From positions 4,278,001-4,342,000 of the forward strand of contig NZ_CP077062.1 in assembly GCF_019039255.1 (NCBI RefSeq): a stretch of 64,000 nucleotides of DNA, given 5' to 3'. The stretch comes from Nocardioides panacis (GTDB taxonomy: Bacteria; Actinomycetota; Actinomycetes; Propionibacteriales; Nocardioidaceae). Positions 6,378 to 19,038 of this stretch are shown here, piece by piece (positions within the stretch are counted from its first letter, which is position 1; every line of letters starts with the position of its first letter). The translations under genes and the position numbers were made by a program. The notes under the pieces are model-generated. The model saw nothing but the letters and a program-made list of their open reading frames with translations. It did no database searches and was not told the origin of the DNA.

Positions 6378-7104
6378 TCAGCGGGTGCGGCGGTGGACGG
6401 TCTCCCGCTTGGTCTCGTTGACCGCCGACTCGTAGGCCGTCACCAGCGCCGCGATCGTCACCGGCTTGAACCGCTCGACGACCTCGCGCAGCTGCTCGGG
6501 CGTGGAGTCGCCGTCCTTGTAGGCCGGCCAGACCTTGGTGCGGAACAGGTCGGTCAGTTCCGCGGCGACCTGGCGGCCGTGCTCGGTGAAGATGTCCTGG
6601 GCCGCCAGCGCCGCGTCCAGCGGCATGCCCAGGTCGAGCAGCGCGACGCCGACCGAGAGGTGCGCGATCGCGACCTGGTACTTCCCCTGCTTGGTCGGGA
6701 ACACGATGCCCAGCGCGTTCAGGGTGTCCAGGTCGTCGTCGGACAGCGGCCGTCCGGCGCGCTTGCCGAGCTCCCGCCGCGAGATCGTCTCGGGCAGCTC
6801 GGCCATCCACGGCGCGAGCAGCGTCCGGTGCAGCGCGATGGTCTCCGGGGACGCGTCGGCCGGGATGCGGGCGACGTACTTCTCGATCGCGGACAGCGTG
6901 GAAGCCGTGCGCCTGCAGCTCGCTGACCAGCTCCAGCCGGGCGACGTGGTCCGGGGAGTAGTAGCCCGACCGGCCGCGCCGGATCGGCGGGGGCACCAGG
7001 CCCTTGGTCGTGTAGAACCGGATGTTGCGCACCGACATCCCGACCCGGCGGGTCAGGCTGTCCAGGGTGATCAGCTCAGCGGTCTCGTCGGACTGCTCGG
7101 GCAT
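6378..7104 (-). CDS. MerR-family transcriptional regulator, +1 frameshift
   Basis: The N-terminal half (from ATG 7104) carries a MerR winged-helix motif: [23 protein letters not shown], then [22 protein letters not shown]. After HGF the frame breaks. In the second frame the protein continues [13 protein letters not shown] ... [18 protein letters not shown] to a normal stop at 6378. Removing one G at 6900/6901 (plus-strand CGTGGAAGC to CGTGAAGC) restores one 241-residue protein. It is divergent from the thiolase/multifunctional enzyme pair and probably controls it. The effector is unknown; a fatty-acid or acyl-CoA signal is inferred from context. Confidence 0.85.
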
Positions 7105-7159
7105 CGGGTCCTCGGGCTCGGTCGGGCGGGCGTGGGTGACGGATCACAGGGGCTGCTGG

Positions 7160-7190
7160 TTGACGACCTTAACAGTAGGAGTGTCACAAT
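7160..7190 (+). promoter_or_regulatory. Possible MerR-controlled promoter of the thiolase operon
   Basis: TTGACG (7160-7165) and CACAAT (7185-7190) are separated by 19 bases, the long spacer typical of MerR-activated promoters. An imperfect dyad (GAC...CTTA / TAGG...GTC) lies in the spacer. The site is between the divergent MerR and thiolase genes. The -10 box is weak, so this is a suggestion only. Confidence 0.35.
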
Positions 7191-7231
7191 CGAGGCGCAG
7201 CCCCGTCACCGACCAGTTGGGACAACCGAGC

Positions 7232-8452
7232 ATGGCTGAGCAGCCGCAGGCCTTCGTGTACGACGCGATCCGCACCCCCCGGGGCAAGGGCAAGAAGAAC
7301 GGCTCCTTGCACGAGGTGAAGCCCGTCGACCTGGTCGTCGGGCTGCTCGACGAGGTCAAGGCCCGCAACCCCGGGCTCGACCCGGCGCGCGTCGACGACG
7401 TGGTCCTCGGCGTGGTCACCCCGATCGGCGACCAGGGGGCCGACATCGCCAAGACCGCGGCGCTGGCCGCGGGCTACCCCGAGACCGTCGCGGGCGTGCA
7501 GCTCAACCGGTTCTGCGCCTCGGGGCTGGAGGCCGTCAACCAGGCCGCGATGCGGGTCCGCTCCGGCTTCGAGGACCTGATCCTCGCCGGTGGCGTGGAG
7601 TCGATGTCCCGGGTGCCGATGGGCTCCGACGGCGGCGCCTGGGCGATGGACCCCCGCACCGCGCTGGACACCTCGTTCGTGCCCCAGGGGATCGGCGCCG
7701 ACCTGATCGCCACGCTCGGCGGCTGGACCCGGGAGGACGTGGACGGGTTCGCGGCCGAGTCGCAGGCCCGGGCCGCCAAGGCCCAGGCCAACGGCTTCTT
7801 CGACCGCTCGGTGGTGCCCGTCAAGGACTTCAACGGGCTGACCGTGCTGGAGCGCGACGAGTTCATCCGCCCCGGTACGACGGTCGAGAGCCTGGCCGGA
7901 CTCAAGCCGTCGTTCGCGCAGATCGGCGACCAGGGCGGCTTCGACTCGGTGGCGCTGGAGAAGTACCACTGGGTCGAGGAGATCGACCACGTGCACCACG
8001 CCGGCAACTCCTCCGGGATCGTCGACGGCGCCGCGCTCGTGGCGATCGGCACCGAGCAGGTCGGCATCGACCTCGGCCTCACCCCGCGCGCCCGGATCCT
8101 GGCCGCCGCGGTCTCCGGCGCGGACCCGACGATCATGCTGACCGGCCCGGCGCCGGCGTCCCGCAAGGCGCTCGCCAAGGCCGGGCTGACGCCTGCGGAC
8201 ATCGACCTCTACGAGATCAACGAGGCGTTCGCGGCGGTGGCGATGCGGTTCATGCGCGACCTCGACCTGCCCCACGAGAAGGTGAACGTCAACGGCGGCG
8301 CCATCGCGATGGGCCACCCGCTCGGCGCGACCGGCGCGATGATCCTCGGCACGCTGATCGACGAGCTCGAGCGCCGCGACCTGCGCTACGGCCTGGCCAC
8401 GCTCTGCGTCGGCGGCGGCATGGGCATCGCCACCGTCGTCGAGCGCATCTGA
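7232..8452 (+). CDS. fadA: Acetyl-CoA C-acyltransferase (thiolase)
   Basis: A 406-residue degradative thiolase that cleaves 3-ketoacyl-CoA with CoA in the last step of beta-oxidation. The acyl-accepting Cys95 sits in [11 protein letters not shown], the active-site His362 in [15 protein letters not shown] and the second Cys (about 392) in CVGGGMG. The GLEAVN and YEINEAFA motifs are also present. The ATG at 7232 is preferred over an upstream extension that lacks homology to the family. It is followed after 53 bases by the multifunctional enoyl-CoA hydratase/dehydrogenase, the usual fadA-fadB order, and divergently by the MerR gene. Confidence 0.95.
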
Positions 8453-8505
8453 CCTCCCGTCCCGTCTTCCGCCCGTCTTCAGCAGACTCTTCAGCAGAGG
8501 AACCC

Positions 8506-10707
8506 ATGACCGACACGAGCACGCAGACCGCCGTCCGCTACGAGCAGGACGCCGACGGCATCGTCACGCTGACCCTGGACGACCCGACGGCCGGCGCGAA
8601 CACGATGAACGAGCTCTACCGCGACTCGATGAGGGCCGCGGTGGACCGGCTGGTGGCCGAGAAGGAGTCGGTCACCGGCGTCGTGGTGACCAGCGGCAAG
8701 AAGACGTTCTTCGCCGGCGGCAACCTCAAGAAGATGATCGAGGCGACCCCGGACGACGCCCCCGCGCTGTTCGCCGAGATCGAGGGCATGAAGGCCGACC
8801 TGCGCCGCCTGGAGACCCTGGGCCGTCCGGTCGTGGCCGCGGTCAACGGTGCCGCGCTCGGCGGCGGCCTGGAGATCGCGCTCGCCTGCCACCACCGGAT
8901 CGCCTACGACGACCCGCGCACCGAGCTGGGCCTGCCCGAGGTCACCCTCGGCCTGCTGCCCGGCGGTGGCGGCGTCACCCGGGTCGTGCGGATGCTCGGC
9001 CTCACCGACGGCCTGATGGGCGTGCTGCTCACCGGCACCCGGTTCAAGCCGGCGCAGGCCCTCGAGAAGGGACTCGTGGACGAGCTCGTCACCGACCGCG
9101 ACGCGCTCGTCCCGGCCGCGAAGGCCTGGGTGCTGGCGCACCGCGACGACGACGAGGCTGCCGTACAGGTGTGGGACCGGGCGGGCTACCGGATGCCCGG
9201 CGGCACGCCGTCGACCCCCAAGCTGGCGGCCTTCCTGCCGGCGTTCCCGGCCAACCTGCGCAAGCAGACCAAGGGCGCGAACTACCCGGCCCCGCGGGCG
9301 ATCCTGTCCGCCGCGGTCGAGGGCGCGCAGGTCGACTTCGAGACCGCGAGCCGGATCGAGTCGCGCTACCTCACCCGGCTGCTGGTCGGGCAGAACGCCA
9401 AGAACATGATCCAGGCGTTCTTCTTCGACCTGCAGGCGATCAGCTCCGGGTCGCTGCGCCCCGAGGGCGTCGAGAAGTTCACCGCGACCCGGCTCGGCGT
9501 GCTCGGCGCCGGGATGATGGGCGCCGGCATCGCCTACTCCGCGGCCCGCTCCGGCATCGAGGTGGTGCTCAAGGACGTCAGCCTCGAGGCCGCCGAGAAG
9601 GGCAAGGCCTACTCCGCGACGATCCTGGACAAGGCGATCGGCCGCGGGCGGATGACGCCGGAGAAGAAGGCCGAGATCCTCGACCGGATCACCCCGACCG
9701 CCGACCCGGCCGACCTGGCCGGCTGCGACTGCGTGATCGAGGCGGTCTTCGAGGACCCGGCCCTGAAGGCCCGCGTGTACGGCGAGGTGCAGCACGTCGT
9801 GAACCCCGACGCGCTGCTCGCCTCGAACACCTCGACGCTGCCGATCACCGAGCTCTCCGCGGCCGTCGACCGGCCCGAGGACTTCGTCGGCATGCACTTC
9901 TTCTCGCCGGTCGACAAGATGCCGCTGGTGGAGATCATCCGCGGCGCGAAGACCTCGGACGCGACCATCGCCCGCGCCATCGACGTCGTGCAGCAGATCA
10001 AGAAGACCCCGATCGTGGTCAACGACAGCCGCGGGTTCTACACCTCGCGGGTCTACGGCACGTTGCTCACCGAGGCCGCGGCGCTGCTCGACGAGGGCGT
10101 CGACCCGCAGACCATCGAGCGGGCCGCGACGATGGCCGGCTTCCCGGCGCCGCCGCTGGCGATGCTCGACGAGGTGTCCCTGACGCTGACCCGGAGCATC
10201 CGCAAGGCCACCCTCGAGGCCGCCGCCCGGGACGGCGTCGCGCTGCCCGAGCAGCCCGGCACCGCGACGATCGACCGGATGGTCGACGAGTTCGGGCGCC
10301 GCGGCAAGGCCGCCGGGGCCGGGTTCTACGACTACCCCGAGGGTGCGAAGAAGAAGCTCTGGCCCGGGCTGCGCGAGCACTTCACCCGCGGGGACGTCCA
10401 GGTCCCGCTGGTCGACCTGCAGGAGCGGTACCTGTTCCGGATGGCGCTGGAGACCGTCTCCTGCTTCGCCGAGGGCGTCATCGACTCGGCCGCCGCGGCG
10501 AACATCGGGTCGATCATGGGCATCGGCTTCCCGCCGCTGTACGGCGGCGCCGTGCAGTACATGCAGGGCTACGAGGGCCCCGCCGGCACCGGGCTGACCG
10601 GGTTCGTGGCCCGGGCCCGTGAGCTCGCGGCCACCTACGGCGAGCGGTTCGCCCCTCCGTCGTACGTCGTGGACCTGGCGGAGCGGGGCGGCTCCTTCCC
10701 CGCCTGA
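8506..10707 (+). CDS. fadB: 3-hydroxyacyl-CoA dehydrogenase / enoyl-CoA hydratase, multifunctional
   Basis: A 733-residue beta-oxidation enzyme. Residues about 10-200 form an enoyl-CoA hydratase/isomerase domain with the oxyanion-hole segment FFAGGNLK and NGAALGGGLEIAL and the catalytic-glutamate region LGLPEVTLGLLPGGGG. The NAD-binding domain starts near residue 325 with LGVLGAGMMGAGIA, followed by NTSTLPIT and GMHFFSPVDKMPLVEI, where the catalytic His lies. The C-terminal helical domain ends near AERGGSFPA. Together with the thiolase it converts enoyl-CoA to acetyl-CoA plus a shortened acyl-CoA in the cytoplasm. Confidence 0.95.
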   Translation: MTDTSTQTAVRYEQDADGIVTLTLDDPTAGANTMNELYRDSMRAAVDRLVAEKESVTGVVVTSGKKTFFAGGNLKKMIEATPDDAPALFAEIEGMKADLRRLETLGRPVVAAVNGAALGGGLEIALACHHRIAYDDPRTELGLPEVTLGLLPGGGGVTRVVRMLGLTDGLMGVLLTGTRFKPAQALEKGLVDELVTDRDALVPAAKAWVLAHRDDDEAAVQVWDRAGYRMPGGTPSTPKLAAFLPAFPANLRKQTKGANYPAPRAILSAAVEGAQVDFETASRIESRYLTRLLVGQNAKNMIQAFFFDLQAISSGSLRPEGVEKFTATRLGVLGAGMMGAGIAYSAARSGIEVVLKDVSLEAAEKGKAYSATILDKAIGRGRMTPEKKAEILDRITPTADPADLAGCDCVIEAVFEDPALKARVYGEVQHVVNPDALLASNTSTLPITELSAAVDRPEDFVGMHFFSPVDKMPLVEIIRGAKTSDATIARAIDVVQQIKKTPIVVNDSRGFYTSRVYGTLLTEAAALLDEGVDPQTIERAATMAGFPAPPLAMLDEVSLTLTRSIRKATLEAAARDGVALPEQPGTATIDRMVDEFGRRGKAAGAGFYDYPEGAKKKLWPGLREHFTRGDVQVPLVDLQERYLFRMALETVSCFAEGVIDSAAAANIGSIMGIGFPPLYGGAVQYMQGYEGPAGTGLTGFVARARELAATYGERFAPPSYVVDLAERGGSFPA

Positions 10708-13768: not shown

Positions 13769-14365
13769 CTAGCGGAGCGCCACCAGCGCGTGCAGCGCCG
13801 CCACCCCGTGGTCGACGAGCTCCTCGGCGGTCCGGGTCCGCCGGTCCGCCGGCCGCCCCGACCAGGACAGCGCGCGGTCCTCGACGTACATCCACCAGGC
13901 GTGCACCACGTCGGCGTGCTCGGGCCCGAGGTCCAGGCAGGTCAGCACCCGGCGGGTGGCCCGGTCCCAGATGTCGTCGTACACCTCGACCACCGCCACG
14001 TCGCCGGCCCCGGTGCCGTGCAGCAGGGAGAGGTAGAACGCGCGCCGCCGGTCGATCTGCTCGGCGAAGAGCCGCACCATCGAGCGCACCTGCTCCGCCG
14101 GCGGCAGGTCCGGGTCCGGGGCGGTGTTGCGCAGGATCCGCCGGCCGGCCGCGGCGATGCACTCGCGGTAGAAGTCGGCCTTGGTGGGGAAGTAGTGGAA
14201 CAGCAGGCTCCGGGAGATGCCCGCCTCGGCGGCGACCTCGTCGACCGAGAGCTCGTGGATCGGCCGGTCGACGAGCTTGGCCAGCCCGATGCCGACGAGC
14301 TGGCGGCGCCGGTCGTCGCGGGTCAGCCGGGTCCTGCGGGGCGTGACCGTCACGCTATTGAGCAT
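13769..14365 (-). CDS. TetR-family transcriptional regulator
   Basis: A 198-residue repressor. The N-terminal helix-turn-helix reads VDEVAAEAGISRSLLFHYFPTKADFY (residues about 42-67), and the C-terminal ligand domain is helical. It is divergent from the five-gene acyl-CoA dehydrogenase operon. Its ATG lies inside a perfect 15-base palindrome (14358-14372) that also overlaps the -35 box of the operon promoter, so it probably represses itself and the operon until an acyl-CoA or similar ligand binds. Confidence 0.9.
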   Translation of the reverse strand: MLNSVTVTPRRTRLTRDDRRRQLVGIGLAKLVDRPIHELSVDEVAAEAGISRSLLFHYFPTKADFYRECIAAAGRRILRNTAPDPDLPPAEQVRSMVRLFAEQIDRRRAFYLSLLHGTGAGDVAVVEVYDDIWDRATRRVLTCLDLGPEHADVVHAWWMYVEDRALSWSGRPADRRTRTAEELVDHGVAALHALVALR

Positions 14366-14386
14366 TGCTCAACAAGGATCTAGGGT
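14358..14386 (+). promoter_or_regulatory. Operon promoter overlapped by TetR operator
   Basis: TTGAGC (14358-14363), 17 bases, TAGGGT (14381-14386), then 7 bases to the ATG at 14394, consistent with a leaderless transcript. The palindrome TTGAGC-ATT-GCTCAA (14358-14372) covers the -35 box and the start codon of the divergent TetR gene, an arrangement expected for joint repression of both directions. Confidence 0.7.
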
Positions 14387-14393
14387 CAAGGAC

Positions 14394-15647
14394 ATGGACT
14401 TCTCACCGTCACCGCGGGCCGCCGACCTCACCGAGCGGGTGCGGACCTTCCTGCAGACCGAGATCGAACCCGTCGAGGCGGACTACCACCGCGAGCTCGC
14501 CGCACTGCGCGCGCAGGGCGGCGACGCGGTCTGGCAGCCGCTGCCGCTGATCGCCGAGCTGCAGGGCAAGGCCCGCGCGCAGGGGCTGTGGAACCTGTTC
14601 CTGCCCCGCGAGCACGCCGGCGAGTACGCCGCGCGCTACGGCACCGACGGCGGCGAGGGCCTCACCAACACCGACTACGCCCCGATCGCCGAGCTCACCG
14701 GCCGCTCGGCGCTGGCGCCGCACGTGTTCAACTGCAACGCGCCGGACACCGGCAACATGGAGGTGCTGCTGAAGTACGGCACCGACGAGCAGCGTGCGCA
14801 GTGGCTCGAGCCGCTGCTGCAGGCCGAGATCCGCAGCGCGTTCACGATGACCGAGCCCGACGTGGCCTCCTCCGACGCCACCAACATGGCCGCCACCGCG
14901 GTCGTCGAGGGCGACGAGGTGGTGATCAACGGCCGCAAGTGGTGGTCGACCGGCGTGGGCCACCCAGACTGCAAGATCTTCGTGTTCATGGGGCTCACAG
15001 ACCCCGACGCCGACCGGCACTCCCGGCACACCATGGTGCTGGTGCCCCGCGACACCCTCGGCGTGAAGGTCGAGCGGATGCTGTCGGTGATGGGCATGCA
15101 CGACGAGCCGCACGGCCACGGGATCGTCTCCTTCAGCGACGTACGCGTCCCGCTCGCCAACGTGCTGCTCGGCCCCGGCCGGGCCTTCGAGATCGCCCAG
15201 GGCCGGCTCGGTCCTGGTCGCGTGCACCACTGCATGCGGCTGGTCGGCCTCGCCGAGATGGCCCTCGAGCTCGCCGTACGACGGGCCACCACCCGGACCG
15301 CGTTCGGCCGGCCGCTGGTCAAGCTGGGCGGCAACGCCGAGCGGATCGCGGACGCCCGGATCGCGATCGACCAGGCCCGGCTGCTGGTGCTGCACGCCGC
15401 CTGGAAGCTCGACACCGAGGGCTCCCGCGGGGCGCTCTCGGCGGTCAGCCAGATCAAGGTCGCGGTGCCGAACATGGCCCAGCAGGTCGTCGACATGGCG
15501 ATGCAGATGCACGGCGGCGCGGGCTTCGACGAGGAGCTCCCGCTCGCCGCGGCCTGGGTCAGCGCCAGGTCGCTGCGGATGGCCGACGGCCCCGACGAGG
15601 TGCACCGCGGCGTGATCGCCAAGCTCGAGACGAAGAAGTACGCATGA
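14394..15647 (+). CDS. Acyl-CoA dehydrogenase, ACAD10/11-like
   Basis: A 417-residue flavoprotein. Family motifs include FTMTEPDVASSDATN (FAD/substrate loop), GRKWWSTGVGHPDCKI, the distinctive FEIAQGRLGPGRVHHCMRLVGLAE and MHGGAGFDEELPLA near the C-terminus. The KWWSTG and QGRLGPGR-HHCMR segments are closest, from memory, to the dehydrogenase half of human ACAD11. Start ATG 14394 is set by the leaderless promoter; upstream in-frame residues lack homology. First gene of an operon with an SDR, an APH-type kinase, a histidine phosphatase and a second SDR. ACAD10/11 enzymes act with a kinase on 4-hydroxyacyl-CoAs, which gives a testable role here. Confidence 0.9.
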   Translation: MDFSPSPRAADLTERVRTFLQTEIEPVEADYHRELAALRAQGGDAVWQPLPLIAELQGKARAQGLWNLFLPREHAGEYAARYGTDGGEGLTNTDYAPIAELTGRSALAPHVFNCNAPDTGNMEVLLKYGTDEQRAQWLEPLLQAEIRSAFTMTEPDVASSDATNMAATAVVEGDEVVINGRKWWSTGVGHPDCKIFVFMGLTDPDADRHSRHTMVLVPRDTLGVKVERMLSVMGMHDEPHGHGIVSFSDVRVPLANVLLGPGRAFEIAQGRLGPGRVHHCMRLVGLAEMALELAVRRATTRTAFGRPLVKLGGNAERIADARIAIDQARLLVLHAAWKLDTEGSRGALSAVSQIKVAVPNMAQQVVDMAMQMHGGAGFDEELPLAAAWVSARSLRMADGPDEVHRGVIAKLETKKYA

Positions 15648-16450
15648 GGGTCCTGGTCACCGGCGGAGCCAGCGGCCTCGGGGAAGCCCTGGTGAACCGC
15701 TTCGCCGAGAGAGGCGACCAGGTGATCTCGGCGGACCTCGCCCACCCCGACTTGTCAGGCGCTGAGTCGGCTGGGACCGGTTCACCGCCTGACAAGTCGG
15801 TGGTGCGGCGGGTCCTCGACGTCACCTCCGACGCGGACTGGGCGTCCGCGGTCGACTTCGTCTCTTCCTCGTGGGGTGGGCTGGACCTGCTCGTGAACAA
15901 CGCGGGCGTCGCGGGGGGCGGCCGGATCGAGCGGTGCTCGCTCGAGGACTGGCAGTGGATCTTCGACGTCAACCTGTTCGGCGTGGTCCGCGGCACCCGC
16001 GCGTTCGTGCCGATGCTCAAGGCCCAGGGCTCCGGCCGGATCGTGAACACCGCCTCGCTCGCCGGCCTGGTGCACCCGCCCGGCATGGGCTCCTACAACG
16101 CGGTCAAGGCCGCCGTCGTGGCGTTCAGCGAGACCGCCGCGCACGAGCTCGCGCCGTACGGCGTCGGGGTCACGGCCGTCTGCCCGTCGTACTTCAGGAC
16201 GAACCTGATGTCCTCGATGCGCGGCGGCGACGCCGACCTCGCGGCGCAGATCACCCGCATGGTCGAGCGGTCCCCGATCACCGCCGACGACATCGCCGCG
16301 GCGGTGCTCGAGGGCATCGAGCGCGGCGACGAGCTGATCCTCCCCGACGAGCCGGCCCGGGCGGCGTACGCGCTGAAGCTGTCCGACCGCACGGCGTACG
16401 ACGAGCAGATGCGCGCCACCGCGGCGCGGGCGAAGGAGCGTGACGCATGA
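15644..16450 (+). CDS. Short-chain dehydrogenase/reductase with an internal hairpin insertion
   Basis: A 268-residue NAD(P)-dependent oxidoreductase: cofactor loop TGGASGLGEAL (residues 6-16), NNAGVAGGG, catalytic Ser in NTASLAG and the YNAVK active-site motif. ATG 15644 overlaps the preceding stop (ATGA) and the gene ends in the same way on the kinase gene. Residues about 35-52 (DLSGAESAGTGSPPDKS region) are encoded by a 54-base inverted repeat and look like an extra loop compared with usual SDRs between beta-strand 2 and the DVTS segment. Substrate unknown; probably a hydroxyacyl intermediate of the operon pathway. Confidence 0.9.
   Translation: MRVLVTGGASGLGEALVNRFAERGDQVISADLAHPDLSGAESAGTGSPPDKSVVRRVLDVTSDADWASAVDFVSSSWGGLDLLVNNAGVAGGGRIERCSLEDWQWIFDVNLFGVVRGTRAFVPMLKAQGSGRIVNTASLAGLVHPPGMGSYNAVKAAVVAFSETAAHELAPYGVGVTAVCPSYFRTNLMSSMRGGDADLAAQITRMVERSPITADDIAAAVLEGIERGDELILPDEPARAAYALKLSDRTAYDEQMRATAARAKERDA
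15747..15800. repeat. 54-base inverted repeat embedded in the SDR coding sequence
   Basis: Perfect 15-base arms CCGACTTGTCAGGCG (15747-15761) and CGCCTGACAAGTCGG (15786-15800) flank a 24-base loop. The length is a multiple of three and the reading frame stays open, encoding an extra loop. It looks like a small palindromic element inserted in-frame. I found no second copy in the window. Confidence 0.7.
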
Positions 16451-17514
16451 CCGACCCCTCAGTGGACGTCCGCGAGGAGGACGCGTTCGACGTCGCCGCG
16501 ATGACGGCCTGGCTCGCCGAGCACGGGCGCGACGTGCCCGCGGGGACGCCGGAGGTCCGGCAGTTCCCGGGCGGCGCCTCGAACCTCACCTACCTGCTGT
16601 CCTACGACGAGCGCGACCTGATCCTGCGCCGGCCGCCGTCGGGCGTGAAGGCCAAGAGCGCGCACGACATGTCCCGCGAGTTCACCATCCAGTCCAAGCT
16701 GGCGCCGGTGTTCGGGCTGGTGCCCGGGATGGTGGCGTTCTGCGACGACCCGGACGTGATCGGCTCGGACTTCTACGTCATGGAGCGGCTCGCCGGCACG
16801 ATCCTGCGCCGCGACCTGCCCGACGGGCTGGCGCTGTCGGAGGACCAGGCCCGCACGCTCTGCACGAACTTCCTCGACGTGCTCGTCGACCTGCACCAGG
16901 TCGACCCGTCGCAGGCCGGGCTCGACGACCTCGGCCGGGGCGCCGGGTACGTCGCGCGGCAGGTCGGCGGCTGGTCGGACCGCTTCCGCAAGTCCCGCAC
17001 CGACAACGTCGGCGACTACGAGCGGGTGATGGGCTGGCTCGACGAGCAGCAGCCCGACGACGTGGCGACGACCGTGATCCACAACGACTTCCGGCTCGAC
17101 AACGTGGTGCTCGACGCGGACGACCCGCTCCGGGTGATCGGCGTCCTGGACTGGGAGATGGCCACCCTCGGCGACCCGCTGATGGACCTCTCCGGCGCGC
17201 TGGCCTACTGGATCCAGGCCGACGACGACGAGGACTTCCGCGCGGCCCGCCGGCAGCCCTCGGACCTGCCGGGGATGCTGACCCGCGCCGAGATGGTGGA
17301 CTACTACACCTCCCGGATGGGCCTCTCGGTGACGCCCGAGCAGTGGCGGTTCTACGAGGTCTTCGGGCTGTTCCGGCTCGGCGTGATCGCCCAGCAGATC
17401 TACTACCGCTACCACCACGGGCAGACCACCAACGAGGCCTACGCCCGGTTCCTGCCGATGACGCAGTACCTCGAGCAGCGCTGCAACCGGCTGATCGACG
17501 AGGCCACCGGATGA
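16447..17514 (+). CDS. APH-type phosphotransferase (ACAD10/11 kinase-like)
   Basis: A 355-residue aminoglycoside-phosphotransferase-fold protein. The nucleotide-binding N-lobe contains QFPGGASNLTYLL and LRRPPSG. The Brenner motif HNDFRLDN (about residues 213-220) holds the catalytic Asp, and DWEMATLGDPLMDL is the metal-binding segment. These motifs match the kinase domain of ACAD10/11 and similar bacterial kinases rather than antibiotic kinases. It overlaps the SDR before and the phosphatase after (ATGA both). Together with the ACAD it could phosphorylate and then eliminate a 4-hydroxyl group from acyl-CoA; this is inference. Confidence 0.88.
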   Translation: MTDPSVDVREEDAFDVAAMTAWLAEHGRDVPAGTPEVRQFPGGASNLTYLLSYDERDLILRRPPSGVKAKSAHDMSREFTIQSKLAPVFGLVPGMVAFCDDPDVIGSDFYVMERLAGTILRRDLPDGLALSEDQARTLCTNFLDVLVDLHQVDPSQAGLDDLGRGAGYVARQVGGWSDRFRKSRTDNVGDYERVMGWLDEQQPDDVATTVIHNDFRLDNVVLDADDPLRVIGVLDWEMATLGDPLMDLSGALAYWIQADDDEDFRAARRQPSDLPGMLTRAEMVDYYTSRMGLSVTPEQWRFYEVFGLFRLGVIAQQIYYRYHHGQTTNEAYARFLPMTQYLEQRCNRLIDEATG

Positions 17515-18173
17515 GTGTGCTGCTGCTGGTCCGGCACGGCCAGGCCTCCTGGGGCGAGGCCGACTACGACCGGCTCTCCGCGGTCGGCGAGGAGCAGGCC
17601 CGGGTGCTCGGGGCGGCGCTGGCCGCCCGTGGCGTGCGGCCGGACCTCGTCGTCCGCGGCTCGATGCTGCGGCACCGGCAGACCGCCGACGGCGCGGTGT
17701 CCGCGGCCGGCTGGGACGCGACCGTCGGCGAGGACGCCGACTGGGACGAGTTCGACCACATGAGCACGCTGACCGGCTCGGTCGCGTGGTCCGAGGTCGA
17801 GGGCGAGACGTACGACGAGCGGGTGCTCCGGTTCGAGGCGACCATCGACCGCTGGGCCTCGGGGGAGCACGACGACGAGTACCGCGAGAGCTTCCCGGCG
17901 TTCCAGCAGCGGGTCCACGGCGCCTTCGAGCGGACCGTGGAACGGCTCGAGCCGAAGCAGACCGCGGTGGTCTTCACCTCCGGCGGCCCGGTGTCCTGGG
18001 TGGCCGCGACGCTCGCCGAGGGCGGGCTGCCGGCCTGGTCGCGGTTGTCGAAGGTGGTGGTGAACTCGTCGGTGACCAAGGTGCTCAGCGGTCGCCGCGG
18101 CACCAACCTGCTGACGTTCAACGACCACAGCCACCTCGAGGGCGGGGCTCCCGGCCTGCTCACCTATCGCTAG
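17511..18173 (+). CDS. Histidine phosphatase (phosphoglycerate-mutase-like)
   Basis: A 220-residue member of the histidine phosphatase superfamily. The phospho-accepting His is in LLVRHGQASWG (residues 5-15), the second Arg in RGSMLRHRQTA, and the second His region in VFTSGGPVSW, where the usual SHGG reads TSGGP, so the distal catalytic His is replaced. Activity may therefore be altered. ATG 17511 overlaps the kinase stop. In this operon it may hydrolyse a phosphorylated intermediate or regulate flux; function uncertain. Confidence 0.82.
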   Translation: MSVLLLVRHGQASWGEADYDRLSAVGEEQARVLGAALAARGVRPDLVVRGSMLRHRQTADGAVSAAGWDATVGEDADWDEFDHMSTLTGSVAWSEVEGETYDERVLRFEATIDRWASGEHDDEYRESFPAFQQRVHGAFERTVERLEPKQTAVVFTSGGPVSWVAATLAEGGLPAWSRLSKVVVNSSVTKVLSGRRGTNLLTFNDHSHLEGGAPGLLTYR

Positions 18174-18180
18174 GAGCTCC

Positions 18181-18927
18181 ATGACCACCGTCCTGATCAC
18201 CGGCGCCAGCTCCGGCCTCGGCGAGGAGATGGCCCGCCAGCTCGCCGCCCGCGGCCACGACCTCGCCCTGGCCGCCCGCCGCACCGACCGGCTGGAGCGG
18301 CTCCGCGCCGAGCTGGCCGAGCGGCACCCCGGCGTCCGGGTGGAGGTCCGGGCCCTCGACGTGAACGACCACGACCGGGTCTTCGAGGTGTTCCGCGCCT
18401 TCCGGGCCGACTTCGGGTCGATCGACCGGGTCGTGGTCAACGCCGGCCTCGGCAAGGGCGCGCCGCTCGGCACCGGGCGGTTCGAGGCCAACAGGGAGAC
18501 CGCGCTGACGAACTTCGTCGGCGCGCTCGCGCAGACCGAGGCCGCCCTGGAGATCTTCCGCGACCAGCAGGCCGGTCACCTGGTGATGATCTCCTCGATG
18601 TCCGCGATGCGGGGGATGCCGAAGGCCGGCACCACCTACGCCGCCACCAAGGCCGGGGTCGCGCACCTCGCCGAGGGCGTGCGCGTCGACGTGCTGGGCA
18701 CGCCGATCAAGGTGTCGGTGGTCTACCCCGGCTACATCCGCTCGGAGATGAACGAGAGGGTGCGCAACGCCCCGTTCATCGTCTCCACCGAGGTCGGGGT
18801 GCGGGCGATGGTCGAGGCGATCGAGAAGCAGAAGCCCTCCGCGCGCGTCCCCGCCTGGCCCTGGGTCCCCCTCGGCTTCGCCCTCAAGCACCTCCCCCTG
18901 CCCCTCGCCCGCCGCCTGATGGCCTGA
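18181..18927 (+). CDS. Short-chain dehydrogenase/reductase
   Basis: A 248-residue SDR with cofactor loop TGASSGLGEEM (residues 7-17), NAGLGKG, catalytic Ser region MISSMSA and YAATKAG. It is 7 bases after the phosphatase gene and closes the five-gene operon. The sequence is typical of SDRs acting on acyl or steroid-like hydroxyl groups, and the C-terminus is rich in Pro/Leu (KHLPLPLARRLMA), possibly membrane-associated. Substrate not assigned. Confidence 0.9.
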   Translation: MTTVLITGASSGLGEEMARQLAARGHDLALAARRTDRLERLRAELAERHPGVRVEVRALDVNDHDRVFEVFRAFRADFGSIDRVVVNAGLGKGAPLGTGRFEANRETALTNFVGALAQTEAALEIFRDQQAGHLVMISSMSAMRGMPKAGTTYAATKAGVAHLAEGVRVDVLGTPIKVSVVYPGYIRSEMNERVRNAPFIVSTEVGVRAMVEAIEKQKPSARVPAWPWVPLGFALKHLPLPLARRLMA

Positions 18928-18938
18928 GGAGCTCACCC

Positions 18939-19038
18939 CGACCCGGGCCTGGGGTCAGGTCGACCCGGGCCTGGGGTCAGGTCGACCCGGGCCTGGGGTC
19001 AGGTCGACCCGGGACTGGGGTCAGGTCGACCAGGGACT
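18939..19038. repeat. Tandem 22-bp repeat, about 4.5 copies
   Basis: Units begin at 18939, 18961, 18983 and 19005 with a degenerate partial fifth unit. The unit starts CGACCCGGGCCTGGGG and ends TCAGGT; the fourth has GGGACTGG in place of GGGCCTGG. There are no spacers, so it is not CRISPR. A copy in the opposite orientation, 20 of 22 bases identical, is at 58492-58513. It sits between the SDR stop and the ABC-F promoter. Confidence 0.9.

Follow-up and report, generated by a model that had tools for sequence, protein, structure and literature searches.

The mammalian proteins ACAD10 and ACAD11 were assigned to the catabolism of 4-hydroxy fatty acids in 2024 and 2025, and the bacterial clusters named in the accessible portions of these reports come only from Pseudomonas (PMC12440821, PMC11342911). 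There, LvaA and LvaC of Pseudomonas putida are presented as a split bacterial kinase and acyl-CoA dehydrogenase (ACAD) for 4-hydroxy acids, and bacterial orthologues of both are reported to stand in for the ACAD10 domains in vitro (PMC11342911). In the levulinate cluster of Pseudomonas citronellolis LA18T, a histidine phosphatase gene lies near the kinase gene, and its function is posed as a question in the accessible part of that paper (PMC6692424). Here we analyze a 64,000-nucleotide stretch of Nocardioides panacis (NZ_CP077062.1, positions 4,278,001 to 4,342,000; hereafter the window), in which a divergent TetR-family gene faces five genes encoding an ACAD, a short-chain dehydrogenase/reductase (SDR1), an APH-type kinase, a histidine-phosphatase-fold protein (HP), and a second short-chain dehydrogenase/reductase (SDR2). 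HP carries a serine where other histidine phosphatases have their second catalytic histidine, and the homologies of the dehydrogenase and the kinase support reading the operon as a conserved version of the ACAD10/11 pathway in bacteria, which is not new in kind.

An ACAD11-like dehydrogenase and kinase on separate proteins

The window ACAD, which includes GRLGPGRVHHCMR, finds its best match in the PDB in 4hr3 (607.7 bits), followed by ACAD11 (three entries at 389–393 bits, the top one at 392.6), with all other entries at 132 bits or below. In mouse ACAD11, the available text of PMC12440821 singles out R626, H634 and R637 of an HCMR motif, and the catalytic D753, and describes them as shared among ACAD10, ACAD11, and LvaC. 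A counted alignment places R626, HCMR, and D753 opposite the QGR, HCMR, and ADGPDEVH motifs of the window protein, the chain of the ACAD11 structure being numbered one lower than the residues of that paper. The window segment QGRLGPGRVHHCMR, with HCMR and the upstream arginine, stands opposite QGRLGPGRIHHCMR of ACAD11, and ADGPDEVH stands opposite the identical motif of 8v3u, with a catalytic aspartate instead of the usual glutamate. The arginine, the GPGR[VI]HH[CA]MR segment, and the aspartate are each kept in all 85 ACADs of relatives with at least 50% identity, two of which read HHAMR and four ADGPDAVH or ADGPDIVH. By homology, this enzyme is predicted to eliminate phosphate from 4-phosphoacyl-CoA.

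The kinase scores 263.2 bits against 9o56, 161.1 bits against 3dxp, and 160.8 bits against the kinase half of ACAD11. H212, N213, and D214, as well as D235, W236, and E237, are invariant in nine of nine diverse relatives; HND, with the catalytic aspartate, and DWE are motifs of the APH fold. Its homologues predict that this protein would act on 4-hydroxyacyl-CoA. Since the ACAD residues and the kinase alignment agree with ACAD11, the suggestion of the initial annotation that the two proteins correspond to the two halves of ACAD11 is correct, and all of the genes and quoted motifs (HNDFRLDN, DWEMATLGDP, and TSGGP) lie where that annotation placed them. Its further proposal of a 4-hydroxy acid pathway encoded by split genes draws support from the same homologies but loses its novelty to LvaA and LvaC, already published in the accessible text of PMC12440821 and PMC11342911; nor is a phosphatase gene in such a cluster new, having been reported in P. 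citronellolis (PMC6692424).

We consider it likely that the kinase and the ACAD handle 4-hydroxyacyl-CoA by ACAD11 chemistry on separate proteins. The operon would then turn 4-hydroxyacyl-CoA into 2-enoyl-CoA for β-oxidation and would probably serve to rescue 4-hydroxy fatty acids for burning. The kinase would put phosphate from ATP on the 4-hydroxyl, and the ACAD, with its aspartate in place of the usual glutamate and its Arg/HCMR phosphate pocket, would eliminate that phosphate. The two short-chain dehydrogenases/reductases may interconvert 4-oxo and 4-hydroxy (or 3-hydroxy) acyl-CoA.

A histidine phosphatase subfamily with serine at the second catalytic position

In ordinary histidine phosphatases the second catalytic histidine sits in THGG, CHGG, or SHGN, and alignment to CobC places Ser157 (TSGG) of HP at this site. 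The TSGGP oddity pointed out in the initial annotation is real and extends well beyond the window. Serine occupies the site in all 41 loci examined (40 relatives and the window) and in all eight relatives from plasmid-collection records. Together with 54 HPs from a kinase scan (described below), these make up a 103-row alignment in which each of the 102 rows reaching the site has the serine; the remaining row (L124), clipped at the domain boundary, reads SSAG in the full sequence. Serine is likewise found in six of six HPs sited on contigs other than their kinase locus, in two further HPs from Actinomycetota, and in 18 of 19 HP matches from another class (274 genomes, entered through an Idiomarina locus), the nineteenth being a fragment that ends before the site. 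In the pooled non-redundant set, which spans five or more phyla, all 128 readable sequences carry serine and one fragment is unreadable; 26 of these sequences lie outside the alignment and were read by motif. The replacement of histidine by serine at the second catalytic position is thus a trait of the whole HP subfamily as far as it has been read.

The rest of the active site is retained, with R8, H9, R54, and E80 invariant in 103 of 103 rows. In histidine phosphatases of branch 1, a nucleophilic histidine with an arginine, a second arginine, and an acidic proton donor serve phosphohistidine formation and protonation of the leaving group. An AlphaFold2 model of HP built from 42 sequences (mean predicted local distance difference test score 94.1) resembles the phosphoserine phosphatase 4ij5 (Foldseek E 1.7e-12) and PGAM5, at 16–24% identity.

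The subfamily is sharply bounded. A search of 198 Actinomycetota genomes gave matches in 67 at E 1e-6, among which three members score at least as well as E 7.3e-64 and are followed by matches near 1e-12; the five best of these weaker matches, the ones inspected, all keep the histidine. Of five phosphatase matches in the N. panacis genome, one is HP itself, three (L179, L180, and L181) keep the histidine, and the fifth, L182, is something other than an HP. We found no description of the serine trait in the open-licence literature, and the subfamily, with its intact nucleophilic histidine, both arginines, and glutamate, seems to be new.

Association of HP with the kinase and competing accounts of its role

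The kinase-alignment scan covered one genome per species and confirmed 587 relatives, of which the best 80 were analyzed further. HP is present in 54 of these 80 kinase loci, and in all 54 it starts −4 to +104 bases from the kinase stop; HP is an accessory of kinase loci. The HP-positive loci span Actinomycetota, Pseudomonadota, Myxococcota, and Bacteroidota (phyla as the records name them), and an annotated replicon adds Deinococcota. A kinase match lies in the same fetched stretch as HP in 30 of the 41 loci and is missing from 11. The order ACAD-SDR1-kinase-HP-SDR2, or a close variant, recurs among relatives, and ACAD-SDR-kinase-HP-SDR is found on annotated replicons of Pseudoalteromonas and a Rhodobacteraceae bacterium, so the gene order is not a matter of chance. 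An ACAD, a kinase, HP, and at least one short-chain dehydrogenase/reductase occur together in annotated Ideonella, Streptomyces, Azospirillum, and Deinococcus as well as in the two replicons just named. Our own searches of unannotated stretches found ACAD, kinase, HP, and SDR2 in Acinetobacter and HP alone in Cupriavidus, where a serine-type HP on the megaplasmid of Cupriavidus metallidurans CH34 (L077, 6001–6639) has no recognized kinase or ACAD within ~6 kb.

In 98 genomes, comprising N. panacis and relatives (thresholds of E 1e-10 for HP and E 1e-30 for the kinase), all 53 HP-bearing genomes carry a kinase of this type somewhere, as do seven of the 45 without HP, and 38 have neither. In the class reached via Idiomarina, a kinase or an ACAD accompanies HP inside the 3.7 kb examined at 15 of 19 loci; some show the order HP-ACAD-kinase or HP-kinase-ACAD, their kinases reaching only 36–47% identity. 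Because HP adjoins such distant kinases and ACADs, it is tied to the pathway and not to one kinase clade. At L037 (genome G054), one of the 30 loci with a kinase match, a stop codon breaks the kinase gene next to HP, and the HP and SDR2 matches are open. An apparent kinase-HP fusion in a single frame at L080 was rejected, since its upstream part is the kinase gene read in the wrong frame.

Position and translational coupling behind the kinase make the kinase product the likely substrate of HP, and since HP keeps the residues for phosphohistidine formation and protonation, we favor an active but altered phosphatase over a dead scaffold. With some hesitation, we propose that HP is a specialized, probably slow phosphatase, which would dephosphorylate 4-phosphoacyl-CoA that has stalled, or the free 4-phospho acid, and so limit a dead-end product. 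For the subfamily as a whole, the wider proposal of a dedicated proofreading phosphatase or a phosphate-sensing brake of 4-hydroxyacyl-CoA kinases comes close to an even call but stays on the doubtful side of it.

Several results weigh against this proposal and the pathway behind it. HP is dispensable: it is missing from 26 of the best 80 kinase loci, some of which sit close to a contig end, and of the 22 genomes among these 26 that were searched, 16 show no HP anywhere at E 1e-6. The co-occurrence of HP and kinase (Fisher p 2e-20) is uncorrected for relatedness and genome size. HP is found without the close kinase in 14 of the 98 genomes, each of which encodes a more distantly related kinase of this type. 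Of the 14, 11 were fetched, and in seven of them HP adjoins SDR2 on the same strand, a pairing that fits a kinase-only role poorly. No kinase or ACAD was seen in the 3.7 kb examined at four of the 19 HP loci of the other class. A CoA ligase is absent from the five operon genes, unlike in the lva operon. Oleate hydratase, considered as a source of hydroxy fatty acids, was rejected: it has no match in the N. panacis genome and is full-length in only four of the 98 genomes (G077, G082, G086, and G094, E below 1e-160), none of which has the kinase. At E 0.001, 28 of the 98 genomes gave oleate hydratase matches, 12 of them above the cut-off, and the rest are partial at 19–25 bits.

In the strongest competing account, HP would have no hydrolase role and would instead serve the kinase as a phosphate-sensing regulator or partner, binding 4-phosphoacyl-CoA or the kinase itself and either restraining the kinase, like the HAD domain of ACAD10, or supporting it, as the small protein LvaB does LvaA. 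The loss of one catalytic residue in all readable members and the coupling of HP directly behind the kinase speak for it. So do two precedents from the accessible portions of the literature: the HAD domain of ACAD10, which has a partial motif and negligible phosphatase activity, restrains its kinase (PMC11342911), and the P. citronellolis cluster lacks lvaB and carries the phosphatase gene in its stead (PMC6692424). We nonetheless regard such a partner as rather unlikely, as the nucleophilic histidine, both arginines, and the glutamate, all invariant in 103 of 103 rows, would be needless in a pure scaffold, HP occurs where the close kinase is missing, and many kinase loci do without it. The idea that HP replaces LvaB in all such clusters found no support, since HP-less kinase loci show no replacement gene at a consistent place; this check used a crude, home-made gene caller that missed the kinase at some loci.

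A different doubt concerns the substrate, which might be another hydroxyacyl-CoA, such as a terpenoid, steroid, or polyketide side chain, and not a plain 4-hydroxy fatty acid or levulinate. Relatives carry a second, distant kinase (29–40% identity), in several beside an ACAD of 47–54% identity, so that the substrates of the two systems may be different. Genes that look MaoC-like by eye and SDR genes surround the distant pair, and HP has no match in 20 regions fetched for such pairs (L159–L178), three of which (L172–L174) are close-kinase loci. No ligase, transporter, or lactonase was found among the five operon genes by inspection of open reading frames and Pfam matches, which also points toward another substrate. 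As the ACAD keeps all of the active-site residues for the 4-phosphate, we judge this account improbable, somewhat more so than the partner role. Least probable of the three is that HP works with the short-chain dehydrogenases/reductases on another metabolite and accompanies the kinase operon through gene order alone. Seven of the 41 loci lack a kinase and run SDR1-HP-SDR2 or HP-SDR2 on a single strand, and four more have HP without a recognized partner or with only an inverted SDR2; yet HP adjoins a kinase or an ACAD in five phyla (as the records name them) and in varied orders, including HP-ACAD-kinase with distant kinases, and no HP-bearing genome of the 98 is without some kinase of this type.

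Operon layout, regulator site, and comparison with known systems

ATGA overlaps join ACAD to SDR1, SDR1 to the kinase, and the kinase to HP, and SDR2 starts 7 bases past HP; with these overlaps and this gap, ACAD-SDR1-kinase-HP-SDR2 reads as one transcription unit. The main Pfam assignments all lie above their cut-offs: Acyl-CoA_dh_1 at 120.5 bits, APH at 170.6, adh_short at 167.3 and 139.1, His_Phos_1 (PF00300) at 74.7 (cut-off 21.7), and TetR_N at 40.3 (cut-off 24). The C-terminal Pfam model of TetR falls below its cut-off for the window protein. The features are collected below.

Features of the operon and its divergent regulator (positions in the window)
Feature	Position	Strand	Remarks
TetR-family regulator, divergent	13769..14365	-	PF00440 40.3 bits; homologue at same divergent site in 8/40 relative regions
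Perfect 7+1+7 palindrome TTGAGCA-T-TGCTCAA, probable TetR operator	14358..14372	.	Overlaps called TetR start codon
ACAD10/11-LvaC-type acyl-CoA dehydrogenase (ACAD), predicted 4-phosphoacyl-CoA phosphate-eliminating enzyme	14394..15647	+	QGR Arg, HCMR, ADGPDEVH motifs
SDR1	15644..16450	+	Nearest NCBIfam model PRK05650, 285.8 bits, slightly below cut-off 297
APH-type kinase, ACAD11 kinase-like, predicted 4-hydroxyacyl-CoA kinase	16447..17514	+	PF01636 170.6 bits; HNDFRLDN and DWEMATLGDP
Histidine-phosphatase-fold protein (HP), Ser157 replacing second catalytic His	17511..18173	+	His_Phos_1; TSGGP
SDR2	18181..18927	+	NCBIfam PRK08251 equivalog, 398.5 bits, cut-off 253

The gap between TetR and ACAD holds the perfect palindrome TTGAGCATTGCTCAA. 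In 19 printed regions upstream of ACAD, read by eye, TTGAGCATTGCT is present at nine of nine loci with a divergent TetR and at none of ten without. The full palindrome is perfect in three of the nine TetR loci, and the others have at least one change in the right arm. Since the palindrome and the called TetR start codon overlap, some of this conservation could come from coding constraint. The palindrome is a probable TetR operator, through which TetR would repress the operon; its conservation lends support to the control by the divergent TetR put forward in the initial annotation.

Further observations concern the surroundings. Thiolase-like and FadB-like (enoyl-CoA hydratase/3-hydroxyacyl-CoA dehydrogenase) frames, recognized by eye, lie a few kilobases upstream at 7022–10707 and fit a β-oxidation neighborhood. 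Immediately downstream of the operon there is a 22-base tandem repeat (4.4 copies, 18939–19035), and two further short arrays of similar units occur elsewhere in the genome. Within the open SDR1 frame, in a region of variable length, a 50-base palindromic element (GACTTGTCAG-N30-CTGACAAGTC, 15749–15798) is missing from 20 aligned SDR1 relatives. Its ends recur at 26 sites in six of 30 genomes searched, 22 of these sites being exactly 50 bases long, and a reversed control pattern gave zero sites in the same search; the interiors are variable, often with CTATAG at the center. The element may be a mobile palindrome or a recognition site.

Set beside the systems known so far, the operon matches mammalian ACAD11 in both the kinase and the ACAD half, with the arginine, HCMR, and catalytic aspartate conserved (our sequence comparison was with ACAD11 only). 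It differs from ACAD10 and ACAD11 in its separate genes, in having no HAD domain, and in the presence of HP and two short-chain dehydrogenases/reductases in the operon. The lva operon, compared here through the descriptions in the accessible text of PMC11342911 and PMC6692424, consists of LvaA (kinase), LvaB, LvaC (ACAD), LvaD (SDR), LvaE (ligase), and LvaR. It likewise has separate kinase, ACAD, and SDR genes, and the window unit of TetR, ACAD, two SDRs, kinase, and HP brings these three together as an lva-type cluster would. In place of a sigma54 regulator the window has TetR, with HP present and no ligase in the operon; open reading frames and Pfam matches revealed neither the acyl-CoA ligase LvaE nor the regulator LvaR in the gene cluster. 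No LvaB-sized gene follows the kinase in the window operon, although no homology search was aimed at LvaB; with kinase and HP overlapping by 4 bases and SDR2 following 7 bases after HP, no extra gene fits. The LA18T cluster of P. citronellolis shares a phosphotransferase, a histidine phosphatase family protein, an ACAD, and an SDR, and differs in gene order and regulator, the likeness of its phosphatase to HP resting on the description in the accessible part of PMC6692424.

The operon thus displays a conserved five-gene form across several phyla, with a predicted regulator site, and raises the question of whether a kinase that makes 4-phosphoacyl-CoA needs a phosphatase or a brake. HP shares the fold, the RHG motif, the second arginine, and the glutamate with branch 1 histidine phosphatases (4ij5, PhoE, and CobC), whereas every HP member read has serine in place of the second catalytic histidine. 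If our proposal for HP is right, this would mean altered chemistry in the histidine phosphatase superfamily, for example a long-lived phosphohistidine. We see a close parallel in the degenerate HAD domain of ACAD10, which is reported to restrain the kinase without notable phosphatase activity (PMC11342911). HP would then be the convergent counterpart of that pseudo-phosphatase domain, and we ask whether the same need has perhaps been met twice, by a HAD domain in ACAD10 and by a modified histidine phosphatase in bacteria.

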